Assembly: GCF_900104095.1 (NCBI RefSeq) | Contig: NZ_FNJO01000011.1 | Coordinates: forward strand, 124,001-188,000 | Length of the DNA: 64,000 bases | Direction: 5' to 3' | From: Ralstonia sp. 25mfcol4.1 | GTDB lineage: Bacteria; Pseudomonadota; Gammaproteobacteria; Burkholderiales; Burkholderiaceae | In this document: positions 32,703 to 38,936 of the stretch, one piece after another | Numbering within the stretch: the stretch's first letter is position 1 | Layout: every line of letters starts with the position of its first letter | Notes under the pieces: model-generated | Databases searched by the model: none | Told to the model about the DNA's origin: nothing | What the model saw: the letters and a program-made list of their open reading frames with translations, nothing else | Program-made: the position numbers and the translations under genes

Positions 32703-33778
32703 GCGGCAAGCGGGTGGTTGTGGGCATGTCGGGGGGCGTGGATTCGTCGGTCACGGCATGGCTGCTCAAGCAGCAAGGGTATGAGGTCATCGGCCTGTTC
32801 ATGAAGAACTGGGAAGACGATGACGACAGCGAGTATTGCTCCACGCGGCAGGACTGGCTCGACGTGGCGTCCGTGGCCGACGTGATCGGCGTGGACGTGG
32901 AAGCCGTCAACTTCGCCGCCGAATACAAGGACCGCGTGTTCGCCGATTTCCTGCGCGAATACTCGGCGGGCCGCACGCCGAACCCGGACGTGCTGTGCAA
33001 CGCCGAAATCAAGTTCAAGGCCTTCCTGGACCATGCGATGTCGCTGGGCGCCGAACTGATCGCCACCGGCCACTATGCGCGCGTGCGCCAGGCCTCCAAC
33101 GGCAGGTTCGAACTGCTCAAGGCGTTCGACCATACCAAGGACCAGAGCTATTTCCTGCACCGGCTGAACCAGGCGCAACTGTCGCGCACGATGTTCCCGC
33201 TGGGCGAAATGCCGAAGACCCGCGTGCGCGAGATCGCCGCCGAAATCGGCCTGCCGAACGCGAAGAAGAAGGACTCCACGGGCATCTGCTTCATCGGCGA
33301 ACGCCCGTTCCGCGACTTCCTGAACCGCTACCTCCCGACCAAGCCCGGCCCGATGGTGACCGACGAAGGCAAGGTCGTCGGCGAACACATCGGCCTGGCG
33401 TTCTACACGCTGGGCCAGCGCAAGGGCATCGGCCTGGGCGGCAGCAAGGACGGCAGCGGCGATGCGTGGTACGTGGCGCGCAAGGACATGGCATCGAACA
33501 CGCTCTACGTCGTGCAAGGCCACGACCACCCCTGGCTGCTGAAGCCGGAACTCGACGCGGCAGACCTGTCGTGGGTCGCCGGCGAACCGCCGGCCGCGGG
33601 GGCGACGATGTCGGCCAAGACCCGATATCGGCAAAGCGACGCGCCGTGCACGGTCGTCAAGGCCGAAGGCGATGAACTGCGGCTGTCGTTTGCCGAGGCG
33701 CAGTGGGCCGTGACGCCTGGGCAGTCGGCCGTGCTCTATGACGGGGAGGTTTGTCTGGGTGGGGGGATTATCCGGTAG
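32699..33778 (+). CDS. mnmA: tRNA-specific 2-thiouridylase MnmA
   Basis: MnmA adds sulfur to U34 of tRNA-Lys, -Glu and -Gln. The 359-residue product (GTG start, coupled to the NUDIX gene) has the ATP P-loop [10 protein letters not shown] (9-18), catalytic Cys100 in PNPDVLCN and Cys197 in [11 protein letters not shown], and the C-terminal [13 protein letters not shown] segment. Size and motifs are normal. A bidirectional terminator follows. Confidence 0.96.
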
Positions 33779-33782
33779 GGGG

Positions 33783-33805
33783 AAAGGGCCGTTGGGCCCT
33801 TTTTT
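33783..33805. terminator. Bidirectional terminator after mnmA
   Basis: AAAGGGCC-GTT-GGGCCCTTTTTT lies immediately after mnmA and 9 bp before the end of the convergent lipoprotein gene. Confidence 0.85.
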
Positions 33806-33813
33806 CGTCGTAT

Positions 33814-34659
33814 CTAGAATTCCCCGACGGGTTTGACCGCGCTCTCGCCTGTCAGCAAATCGACACCCAAGGTCGTTCCCCCGGTAACTTTTACGGGCCC
33901 CGCGTTGGCTGCCAGCCACAACGTCCCTTCGAATAGGGTATTCAGCAGCGGCATTCTGCTGGAGTCGTAATAGCTCACCTTGAGCTTGCAGGCATCCTCA
34001 TACCGGGATTCCCGGGCAGAGATGGATTCGCGGCCCAGATACTGCACGGTCACGTGGGTGCGCCGGGCCTCTATATCGAGAGCCAGGCCGTCCAGATGCC
34101 CGCGCCGGCTGTCCGGATCCGGATCGGGCCTTGCTTCGTTGTACTCAATCAGTATCAGCGATAAGCTTTCATTTGCCTTCATGCCCACCAACGTCGGTAC
34201 GCCGACTTTGCCGGTCACTCGATTTTGGTATTCGAAACGACGGTATTTGCTGACGTTGCGGTCGTATCCCCATTGAACGACGCCGAGCGGAAATATCATT
34301 TCGCTCGGATCAACATAGACATCTGTATAGATCGGGAAGGAGTCGGGCCGGTAGGCAACCCTATCGTAGAGTGTCAGCTTTTTTACTTCCTGCCCGCGAA
34401 ACTGCGTATCGACCAAGTCCTTCGCGCCGAATTCGATCATACCTTCGAACTTCCACAGGTTGACCAGCGCCTGGATCATCTGGCCGTCCGGTATGGTCTT
34501 CGTCAGACACGATTCGTCAAAATCGGCGTGCCGCGCAACCGGCGGCGTATCGCCGGGAGGGATGTTTCCTCCGGCCAGACCATCCTGCTTCTCATCGTTG
34601 GACCCGCCACAGGCGGCGGCAATGCCTGCCACCAGTACTAGTGCGCATGTTCTCTTCAT
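33814..34659 (-). CDS. Hypothetical lipoprotein in accessory island
   Basis: A 281-residue protein I do not recognise. The N-terminus MKRTCALVLVAGIAAACGGSN looks like a lipoprotein signal with lipid Cys17, although position -3 is Ala rather than Leu, followed by a Gly/Asn/Pro-rich linker. The rest is probably globular, rich in beta-prone segments (LTLYDRVAYR, YTDVYVDPSEM, RRFEYQNRVTGK), with no known motif seen. Base composition is lower in GC than the neighbouring core genes. It is the last gene of the 33.8-36.3 kb minus-strand island, 84 bp after the immunity-like gene. Confidence 0.7.
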   Translation of the reverse strand: MKRTCALVLVAGIAAACGGSNDEKQDGLAGGNIPPGDTPPVARHADFDESCLTKTIPDGQMIQALVNLWKFEGMIEFGAKDLVDTQFRGQEVKKLTLYDRVAYRPDSFPIYTDVYVDPSEMIFPLGVVQWGYDRNVSKYRRFEYQNRVTGKVGVPTLVGMKANESLSLILIEYNEARPDPDPDSRRGHLDGLALDIEARRTHVTVQYLGRESISARESRYEDACKLKVSYYDSSRMPLLNTLFEGTLWLAANAGPVKVTGGTTLGVDLLTGESAVKPVGEF

Positions 34660-34743
34660 TTTCCAGAAACTCCGGGAAGGGTTGAAGGGGCGCGTGGATT
34701 CTCGGTGGTCTGGTGCCACCTTGTTTATGAGTTCAACTACACT

Positions 34744-35175
34744 TCATTGGCCGATCGCGGTCAGGACAAATTCTTTTTCCCCGACAATATACGTATCTGC
34801 AACCACACCCGGTCTCAAGATGAAACCTTTCAGTGTCGGTGAAAACATTATGCAATCGCTTAGATTAAGTTTAAGCCATTGTTCGTCTTGAAATTTCTCT
34901 ACCCCTTCTGCATTCGAGGTGAAAGGGAATGTCCGTGGAAGCTCTTCATGAAAAAGATCAAATACACTAACCACAAAGAAATGCGATGAATGGTCCAAAG
35001 CTAGAGCATTGGAAATAAATTTCGCATCGTCATCAAAGATGGCCTTGTCATCGATCGTGTCCACAAGCCATCCTCGCGCTTCGATCGCAGAAACAATCAG
35101 ATGCCCTTCAGGGGCGACATACTGTTTAAGTTTCATGAGGGCGTCGTTCAGTTCGTGATTCCTATTTTTTGCCAT
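34744..35175 (-). CDS. Putative CdiI-type immunity protein
   Basis: A 143-residue acidic cytosolic protein (MAKNRNHELNDALMKLKQYV...), no recognised domain, no signal or membrane segment. It starts 14 bp inside the end of the toxin-like tail upstream, the usual cdiA-CT/cdiI overlap. GC is low: bases 34861-34920 hold 23 G/C in 60, against 45 in 60 at 35401-35460. Position, size and composition suggest immunity against the matching toxin; this is inference from context. A start at 35220 (15 extra residues) lies deeper in the overlap. The frame is intact. Confidence 0.6.
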   Translation of the reverse strand: MAKNRNHELNDALMKLKQYVAPEGHLIVSAIEARGWLVDTIDDKAIFDDDAKFISNALALDHSSHFFVVSVFDLFHEELPRTFPFTSNAEGVEKFQDEQWLKLNLSDCIMFSPTLKGFILRPGVVADTYIVGEKEFVLTAIGQ

Positions 35176-35395
35176 ATCTGATCTCCCGTTTCGTTCTGCC
35201 CCTTCCGTTCTGGAATTCAATCGTAGTCCGTCCGTCCTTGCTTGGCCGCAAAATCACTTTTGACGCGTCGTCGAGTGTCCCGATCTTCACTGGTCCCCTC
35301 TTAGTGATTTCCGTTCGCACGCCTTGAGGGTTAAGCGCCCTGAAATCCCGATTCGCAGTGTCGTCACTACTGTTCGGTACTGACTCAATTGAAGT
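35162..35395 (-). other. CdiA-CT / haemagglutinin-type toxin tail fused to the transporter remnant
   Basis: The last 77 codons (starting TSIESVPNSSDD) do not belong to the transporter. They end ILRPSKDGRTTIEFQNGRGR and KREIRYGKK, a pattern seen at the C-termini of large filamentous-haemagglutinin/CDI and other polymorphic toxins. GC drops across the join: 45 of 60 at 35401-35460 against 30 of 60 at 35341-35400. The toxin family cannot be assigned from so short a piece, and its N-terminal part is lost. The immunity-like gene overlaps its 3' end by 14 bp. Confidence 0.6.
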
Positions 35396-36313
35396 GCCCC
35401 GCGTGCCGCGCGCGCCGGGGTCGCCTCCGCCGAGGTCGTGGTTCAGGCTCGCGTAGAACAGGTCGTTGAGCGTCCACCAGTCGTCGAACGAAAGCGTCAC
35501 GCTGCCCAGGTACTTGCCGGTCTGGCTGCTGCCCGAGTCGTCGACCGTGGCGCTGATGCGAAACGGGATGCCCTGATGCCAGCGGATGACCAGGTCGCTT
35601 TCGCCGGGCCGTGCGCCGGCGTCGTCGGCCGGCACGATCTGGATATCGGCCTCGGCCGTGGGGACGCGCTTGAAGTTCTCCAGCCCCTGTTCGATGTCGC
35701 GCAGGTTCAGGATGTCGCCGGGCCGTGCCGGGAGCGCATTTCACTGGGTGGCGCGCGGATTGGAATCTTCGGTGAAGCGGATCGCGCGGATGCGGCCGGG
35801 CAGCACGGTCAACGTCAGCGTGCCCGATTTCAGGTCCTGCGGCGCGGCCAGTACGCGTGTGGTGACATAGCCTTTCTGCACCAGCGCGTTCTGCACGCGG
35901 GCCATCACGATATTGATGCCGTGCGAGCCCAGGCAGCGGCCGGTTGCCGCATCCGCCGGCAGACTGGCTGCGGCAAGCGCCCATTGGAAGCGCTCGGCGG
36001 CGTCGCCCGCCAGCGACAGGTGATCGATCCGGAAGCAGGGGGATTCGTCGGCGGGAAGCGCCTCGGTGGCCGTGGCGGCAGGGCGTTGCAGCCGGACGTC
36101 GGTCTCCGGCTCCATGCGCTCGCGCAATGCGCGCTCGCGCTCCTGTTGCCGGATCAGTTCAGGCGTATTTGAATCGCGTGGTGGTGCGCCGGGCGCCGGC
36201 TGCGCAAGGGCCATGCCGGCAAGGCCGGGCAGGGTAACGATACTGGCGACCAGCCGCCATAGCCGGTAAAGATGCGCGAATCCGCGCGCGTTACGATGAC
36301 TTGTCCTGACCTG
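35162..36313 (-). pseudogene. Two-partner-secretion transporter (CdiB/FhaC/ShlB type) remnant fused to a CdiA-CT-like tail
   Basis: The frame encodes in order a signal-peptide-like stretch (LYRLWRLVASIVTLPGLAGM), a POTRA_2 domain (PCFRIDHLSLAGD ... VMARVQNALVQKGYVTTRVL), and the beginning of the ShlB barrel domain (LRDIEQGLENFKRVPT, WTLNDLFYASLNHDLGGGD, then GTRG). Three lesions are visible: a TGA at 35741-35743 where the frame otherwise continues without shift (ATQ*NALPARPGD); no ATG, GTG or TTG between the upstream TAA (36314-36316) and Met at 36214, so the signal has no start; and a join after GTRG at 35395/35396 to an unrelated 77-residue tail. About 300 residues of barrel are missing. 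Confidence 0.85.
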
Positions 36314-36316
36314 TTA

Positions 36317-36562
36317 ATGCCCCACGTCGCGGCTCCGAAGCTGAATCGGCGCATTGGGATGCAATGAGACAGGAGGTGAACATTGCGTCCACCGATCGTC
36401 CGCGCGCCAGATCAGCGCGGGACGTTAGCGAGAGGCGCTAGAGGTGAAAATCGTAGAACGCTTGAAGTCTTCCGAACAACGGTGGAAAAATGCTTACCGT
36501 TGTATTGCGCCTACGATGTGTGTCAGATCGGCGGACAATCTGTCTCGGACTTTTCCGAAGGT
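36317..36562. other. Intergenic stretch between island and GST gene
   Basis: No gene, terminator or repeat could be supported in these ~245 bases. It may contain the eroded promoter and start of the transporter remnant. Confidence 0.35.
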
Positions 36563-37177
36563 TCAACCCTTCGGCGGCTCCGTATCGATGAACGACTGGC
36601 GCTTTTCGATCTTGTCCTGGAAGGCAACCAGGTTCGGGTACTGGTCGCGCCAGGCGATGTCCGGGAAGCGGAAGTCCAGGTACGCCAGCGCGCAGCCCAC
36701 GGACACGTCGGCCAGGGTGTAGTGGATGCCGGTGCACCACGGCTTGTCGGCCAGGCCCTTCGACATGGCGGCCACGGCGGCGTCGATCTTGCCGCGCTGG
36801 CGCGCGACCCAGCTTTCGCTGCGTTCGGCGGGCTGGCGCTGCGTGGTTTCCAGGCGAACCAGCAGGGCGGCGTCCAGCAGCCCATCGGCGAGGGCTTCCC
36901 AGCAGCGCACTTCCAGGCGCTCGCGGCTGCCCTGCGGAATCAGGCGGCTGACGGGCGACAGCGTGTCGGCGTACTCTGCAATCACGCGCGAATCGAAGAC
37001 CGCGCCACCGTCTTCCATGATCAGGCACGGCACCTTGCCGAGCGGGTTGAACTGGCCAATGATGGTGTCGGGCGACCAGACGTTCTCCTCGATCATCTGG
37101 TAGTCGATCTTCTTCTCCGCCAGCACCACGCGCACCTTGCGCGCATACGGGCTGGTCTGGGACGCATACAGCTTCAT
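36563..37177 (-). CDS. Glutathione S-transferase family protein (YibF-like)
   Basis: A 204-residue GST with the N-terminal thioredoxin fold MKLYASQTSPYARKVRVVLAE (Ser9 in the usual catalytic region), the cis-Pro segment GKVPCLI (near 48) and FDSRVIAEYAD (near 61), and an all-helical C-terminal domain with YTLADVSVGCALAYLDFR. Substrate unknown. It is divergent from purB across ~380 bp. Confidence 0.9.
   Translation of the reverse strand: MKLYASQTSPYARKVRVVLAEKKIDYQMIEENVWSPDTIIGQFNPLGKVPCLIMEDGGAVFDSRVIAEYADTLSPVSRLIPQGSRERLEVRCWEALADGLLDAALLVRLETTQRQPAERSESWVARQRGKIDAAVAAMSKGLADKPWCTGIHYTLADVSVGCALAYLDFRFPDIAWRDQYPNLVAFQDKIEKRQSFIDTEPPKG

Positions 37178-38936
<1,759 letters not shown>

Follow-up and report, generated by a model that had tools for sequence, protein, structure and literature searches.

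Why would a bacterium keep the gene that protects it from a toxin once the means of making and delivering that toxin are gone? The question is raised by a minus-strand gene cluster in a 64,000-nucleotide stretch of DNA from Ralstonia sp. 25mfcol4.1 (contig NZ_FNJO01000011.1, positions 124,001 to 188,000), hereafter the window, with coordinates counted from its first letter. Here, the 5' part of cdiB, the transporter gene of a contact-dependent inhibition (CDI) system, runs into a 77-codon tail resembling the end of the toxin gene cdiA, which itself overlaps an intact 143-codon gene. The cluster is very probably the remnant of an Escherichia coli-type cdi locus (order B-A-I) that lost its weapon by deletion and kept the overlapping immunity gene, cdiI. 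Because independent homologs exist for each side of the junction and the flanks are syntenic with those of relatives, the arrangement is more than a chance resemblance. The host assembly amounts to 6.34 Mb in 44 contigs, with the junction inside a contig of 216 kb; profile and sequence searches covered 60 genomes of the genus (the host, G000, included) and 299 of the family, cited by number below, the same-genus relatives including Cupriavidus plantarum LMG 26296 (G026) and Cupriavidus agavae ASC-9842 (G004). Both of these carry the 143-residue protein, and the window is accordingly assigned to Cupriavidus.

Anatomy of the cluster

On the minus strand, the broken 5' cdiB is followed by the tail, the 143-codon gene and a 301-codon lipoprotein-like gene, after which mnmA lies on the opposite strand. 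The first piece of cdiB (35744..36214) encodes the end of a signal peptide and a POTRA_2 domain (E 3.6e-18) and is 94% identical to the cdiB of G079. An in-frame TGA (35741..35743), read in the sequence, separates it from a second piece (35396..35740) that encodes POTRA_3 (E 2.6e-17) and columns 1-64 of the 311 of ShlB (E 7.8e-15), and that is 96% identical to its counterpart in G079, 88% in G006, and 83% in both G009 and G004. With its POTRA parts kept, its barrel halting at column 64 and a TGA in frame, this remnant is not a complete CdiB. The first-pass annotation, made from the letters alone, had recognized a CdiB/FhaC-type transporter with POTRA and the start of the barrel, and the domain searches bear this out. 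It had also described a single frame passing after GTRG into the 77-residue tail: the join itself stands, but the frame is not continuous, being cut by the TGA between the POTRA parts. Nor does the frame begin at 36316 as had been proposed, since an in-frame stop lies there and the first ATG, GTG or TTG beyond it is the ATG at 36214, which falls within the stretch aligning to the signal peptide of relatives.

The tail (35162..35395; codons from 35395 to 35165, with the stop reaching 35162) has no ATG of its own and no Pfam domain. Its last codons overlap by 14 bp the intact 143-codon gene (34744..35175), exactly as first described, and a ribosome-binding-site-like GGGAG sits within the tail. 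The G+C content falls from 69.1% in the cdiB piece to 51.1% in the tail and 44.1% in the 143-codon gene, against 65.0% for the window. Neither the tail nor the 143-residue protein has a sequence match in Pfam, NCBIfam, PADLOC or PDB at E < 0.01. Three CdiA/TpsA queries detected no CdiA body in the window, and the three matches to the two-partner secretion (TPS) domain in the host genome all lie on other contigs. The tail is a toxin fragment devoid of an initiation codon beside an intact immunity gene, as in orphan cdiA-CT/cdiI modules, and begins with TSIESVPN straight after the cdiB codons. No pretoxin motif (VENN or similar) is present at its start, and for this reason it is not classed as a standard orphan module.

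Could the fused frame nevertheless work, either as POTRA domains bearing a toxin or with the toxin-immunity pair acting as an internal toxin-antitoxin module? The junction preserves the reading frame, the conserved end of the toxin is whole from Arg-Gly-Thr on and the immunity gene is linked to it, but the position of the TGA, a first start codon within the signal-peptide region and a tail lacking any ATG make this highly improbable.

The slot in related genomes and the junction

The DNA next to the cluster (36450-37300, GST and its flank) matches 59 of the 60 genus genomes, in G078 over just 31 bases, and the best 30 of these loci were inspected. In 26 of them mnmA adjoins GST and the slot between the two genes is empty; the four occupied slots are those of the window, G079, G006 and G035. 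In G079 and G006 the slot, framed as purB-GST-mnmA, holds cdiB, a long cdiA (frames of 2655 and 2624 residues, respectively) and an immunity-type gene, which is the E. coli-type B-A-I order anticipated by the first-pass annotation. Separately, the cdiB of G079 is frame-shifted (L058 near 10960), so that this armed-looking locus may not secrete its CdiA.

From purB to 35396 the window is 92.8% identical to G079 and 81.3% to G006; the match stops at that base and restarts in mnmA. The cdiB genes of G009 and G004, located elsewhere in their genomes, lose the match at the same base, which places the deletion junction at 35395..35396, with toxin tail from 35395 onwards. The tail is not a normal part of this transporter family, as all four cdiB relatives continue otherwise past the same codon. 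At the junction these four genes encode Thr-Arg-Gly-Tyr-Thr and the window Thr-Arg-Gly-Thr-Ser. Six tail relatives reach this point: three read Ser-Arg-Gly-Thr-(Ser/Lys) (G500, G468, G486), one Thr-Arg-Gly-Met (G518), and the other two Lys-Gly-Arg (G004) and Ser-Gly-Thr (G558). As Arg-Gly was probably present in both partners, the crossover is placed at these codons, which would fit a short-homology deletion whose toxin-side DNA has been lost. A single deletion would have taken, along with the barrel half of cdiB, the whole of cdiA bar its last 77 codons, joining cdiB and the toxin tail in frame where the relatives of the former and most relatives of the latter encode Arg-Gly. If the tail ended the resident cdiA, the loss would have amounted to ~7.5-8.5 kb (~8.3-8.5 kb by comparison with G079, G006 and G004, and 7.5 kb with G009).

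An alternative source of such a junction is an assembly artefact uniting two separate loci. The assembly does break at TPS genes, contigs C3/C40 and C15/C38 ending inside such genes. However, the contig that contains the junction extends over 216 kb, and the join lies between purB-GST and mnmA, the same neighbours that frame the slot in G079 and G006; there is no close copy to misjoin, the other two cdiB-type matches being 53% and 41% identical and the tail having one match; and the congener G035 shows a comparable scar. An artefact is therefore scarcely credible.

Toxin tail, immunity gene and other disarmed loci

The tail occurs in three of the 60 genus genomes, namely the host, G026 (70% identity) and G004 (50%, within a frame of 3119 residues), and its profile detects eight of the 299 family genomes (G486, G518, G558, G004, G000, G026, G500 and G468). 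The resemblance to a CdiA C-terminus noted from the letters holds, since the tail ends frames of cdiA size in G486 (2445 residues), G518 (3125), G558 (3785) and G004; the frames are shorter in G026, G500 and G468. G518 possesses a complete cdiB of 619 residues, a cdiA of 3118 residues and a relative of the immunity gene. Relatives of the 143-residue protein directly follow the tail, with an overlap between the genes, in five of the six other full-length cases and the sixth retains just the last bases of the tail, so that a toxin-type neighbour accompanies the gene in all seven, where the first reading would have been contradicted by a gene found mostly alone. C. agavae carries a relative with nothing of the toxin but its last bases. 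This linkage points to the 143-codon gene as the immunity gene cdiI, and the tail and the 143-residue protein together appear to represent a toxin-immunity family absent from the libraries searched. No second copy of either was found in the host assembly (the one tail match is the tail itself), an assembly incomplete at TPS genes.

In terms of mechanism, the cell would no longer be able to secrete or deliver this toxin. The deletion would have left cdiI with its ribosome-binding site, located in the last codons of the toxin, and with the cdiB leader region; CdiI would then bind and block cognate toxin arriving from armed relatives. The 143-codon gene would be expressed and confer immunity, against siblings in the reading of the first-pass annotation, and its retention would be favoured thereby.

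The slot of G035 provides a second scar. There, cdiB up to about codon 110 is joined in frame to the middle of cdiA, giving a 359-codon frame, by a deletion that differs from that of the window. All that was detected of the remaining cdiA is a 28-residue piece and an eroded toxin end, and orthologs of three immunity-type genes of G006 are open, with 61-65% identity over 141/141, 113/131 and 152/156 residues. Two further fragments lie in the slot, one of 55 bp (82%) from the window immunity gene and one of 19 residues (84%) from the window lipoprotein; given these shared fragments, the two loci probably derive from a common ancestral array, and the window's immunity gene would have been lost in G035. 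In C. plantarum, a different stretch of DNA carries the 5' fragment of a different TpsB gene, another small gene, the tail and an intact immunity relative, and no CdiA body was found with three CdiA/TpsA queries in the first 57,900 of the 80,007 bases of that contig.

These arrays raise the question as to whether the tail and its immunity gene formed the end of the resident cdiA at all. They may instead have been a downstream orphan module, the deletion having extended from cdiB across cdiA, together with the toxin and immunity gene that belonged to it, as far as that module. Arrays of more small immunity-type genes do follow cdiA in G006 and G004, the immunity and lipoprotein fragments of the closely related G035 lie inside such an array, and a published deletion joined an orphan module to an upstream cdiA (PMC3150448). 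Against this, the same pair constitutes the main cdiA end in G486 and G518, and a deletion of this kind also predicts loss of immunity to the resident toxin. We consider it a real possibility, compatible with a cdi locus that lost its weapon and kept cdiI except in the size of the deletion and in the lost resident immunity.

Age of the scar and selection on the immunity gene

Several observations weigh against a kept and functional shield. The ratio of nonsynonymous to synonymous substitution (dN/dS) of the cdiB remnant relative to G079 is 0.156, near the 0.178 of G079 versus G006 (GST and purB, 0.10). Because it is still near the value of these relatives, the deletion appears recent, and in so young a scar the immunity gene is expected to be intact even if selection is absent. 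A scan of 33700-36650 for sigma-70-like promoters gave none, which is uninformative given the 1.3 expected in shuffled sequence. G079 and G006 have no match to the tail or immunity gene of the window, and an armed strain carrying the matching toxin was not encountered at the slot. The window immunity gene persists in the G035 slot as a mere fragment, and fragments of its family are decayed in G073 (L080 1471-1679) and G005 (L079 1525-1635), the former flanked by a CdiA-like end and a TpsB gene. The predicted fold of the 143-residue protein is nearest that of CdiI of E. coli A0 34/86 (PDB 5t86 chain I), at 13% identity and at a Z level that chance can give; there is no sequence match to that CdiI, and the structure model of the tail gave no usable fold match. 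The junction itself is known from assembled sequence alone.

Selection on the window immunity gene is shown neither by the comparison of remnant and flank dN/dS nor by that of the G006 and G035 immunity orthologs, two pairs of which have dN/dS of 0.137 and 0.169 with dS of 1.4-2.1 or saturated; the third pair gave no dN/dS, and the mnmA row (2 codons aligned) was left out. The gene could thus be a neutral fossil, intact for lack of time, silent and protecting against nothing. A cdiB remnant still at the dN/dS of intact genes, a single stop among ~270 remnant codons, which makes an undamaged 143-codon neighbour unsurprising, and the decayed relatives in G035, G073 and G005 all accord with this, but the loci of the window, G035 and C. 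plantarum, all three lacking a full cdiA, keep full-length immunity genes of one sort or another, and C. agavae retains the gene beside no more than the last bases of the toxin. A neutral fossil is possible, if somewhat doubtful.

A broader generalization starts from retention of cdiI for protection: losing the weapon while keeping the shield would be a recurrent exit from contact-dependent inhibition in Cupriavidus, armed kin killing those that lose immunity. Deletions running from the 5' part of cdiB into cdiA would be the survivors, since armed kin kill cells that also lack immunity, and both slot fusions, being in frame into cdiA, would keep ribosomes moving toward the overlapping immunity gene. 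We regard this generalization as rather unlikely. As for in-frame fusion as a selected feature in its own right, it was considered and rejected: two in-frame cases out of two have a chance of roughly 1 in 9, and each of the frames is interrupted, so that it figures only within this generalization.

The lipoprotein-like gene (33814..34719, 301 codons, minus strand) is likely part of the old locus. Its relatives (33-39% identity) adjoin TpsB genes in G035 (contig C10), G061, G064 and on host contig C44, and have no TpsB gene within 1.5 kb in G013 and G080; it appears to be a companion, as yet without a name, of some TPS loci. In L023 (G021 C17, ~1315-2337), the start of a TpsB gene seems, by eye, fused to a relative of this lipoprotein and may be another scar of the cdiB type. 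The host has a further TPS system, in the order TpsA-small gene-TpsB, split between the end of contig C3 and the start of C40 (L015, L016) and the ends of C15 and C38. If this system is CDI, one genome would hold the Burkholderia-type order beside E. coli-type remains, a combination that had not been found in 2012 (PMC3415462).

Comparison with known systems

Part of this picture is already on record: orphan cdiA-CT/cdiI modules have been described and proposed to be kept for the immunity that they give, one of them was moved by a deletion, and an orphan CdiI has been reported (PMC3150448, PMC4927057, PMC6336857, PMC9086364). By comparison, the legible cdiB scar, the further scar that G035 has at this slot and a toxin-immunity family outside the libraries searched are new; among the matches listed in open-licence literature, titles and abstract openings mention no cdiB::cdiA-CT scar. 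The 143-codon gene would represent an orphan CdiI kept without its CdiA, in that an intact toxin-linked immunity gene occurs in an assembly with no matching full toxin gene.

CDI has been proposed to police its own loss, as siblings kill cells that have dropped the locus and with it their immunity (PMC4927057). Loci without toxin machinery but with immunity would be the survivors predicted by this model. Among the best 30 loci, two of the four occupied slots, in close species, are disarmed by different deletions, beside two slots with a long cdiA. This set permits dating, counting and direct assay and, should weapon loss with retained immunity prove to be recurrent, would offer a natural test of CDI surveillance.

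The orphan cdiA-CT/cdiI modules (PMC3150448, PMC4927057, PMC6336857), which have been proposed to be retained for immunity, resemble the window in having a startless toxin fragment and, behind it, an immunity gene that points the same way. They typically carry a pretoxin motif at the start of the fragment (PMC9086364), and many solved CDI toxins have a BECR-type nuclease fold (PMC9086364). The window differs in that it has no upstream cdiA: its fragment is joined to the 5' half of cdiB and lacks the pretoxin motif, which leaves the locus wholly disarmed. In Yersinia pestis Microtus 91001 (PMC3150448), a deletion inside the cdi locus likewise brings a downstream toxin/immunity module beside upstream cdi sequence, but cdiA survived there with a new toxin, whereas in the window the deletion reaches upstream into cdiB and has removed cdiA. 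An islet of Salmonella Typhi is reported to contain an orphan CdiI in a genome otherwise without cdi genes (PMC9086364) and, as in the window, an immunity gene stands without its matching system. The window differs from it in that its history is legible, with relatives bearing a long cdiA at the same slot, an exact junction and the end of the toxin still present.
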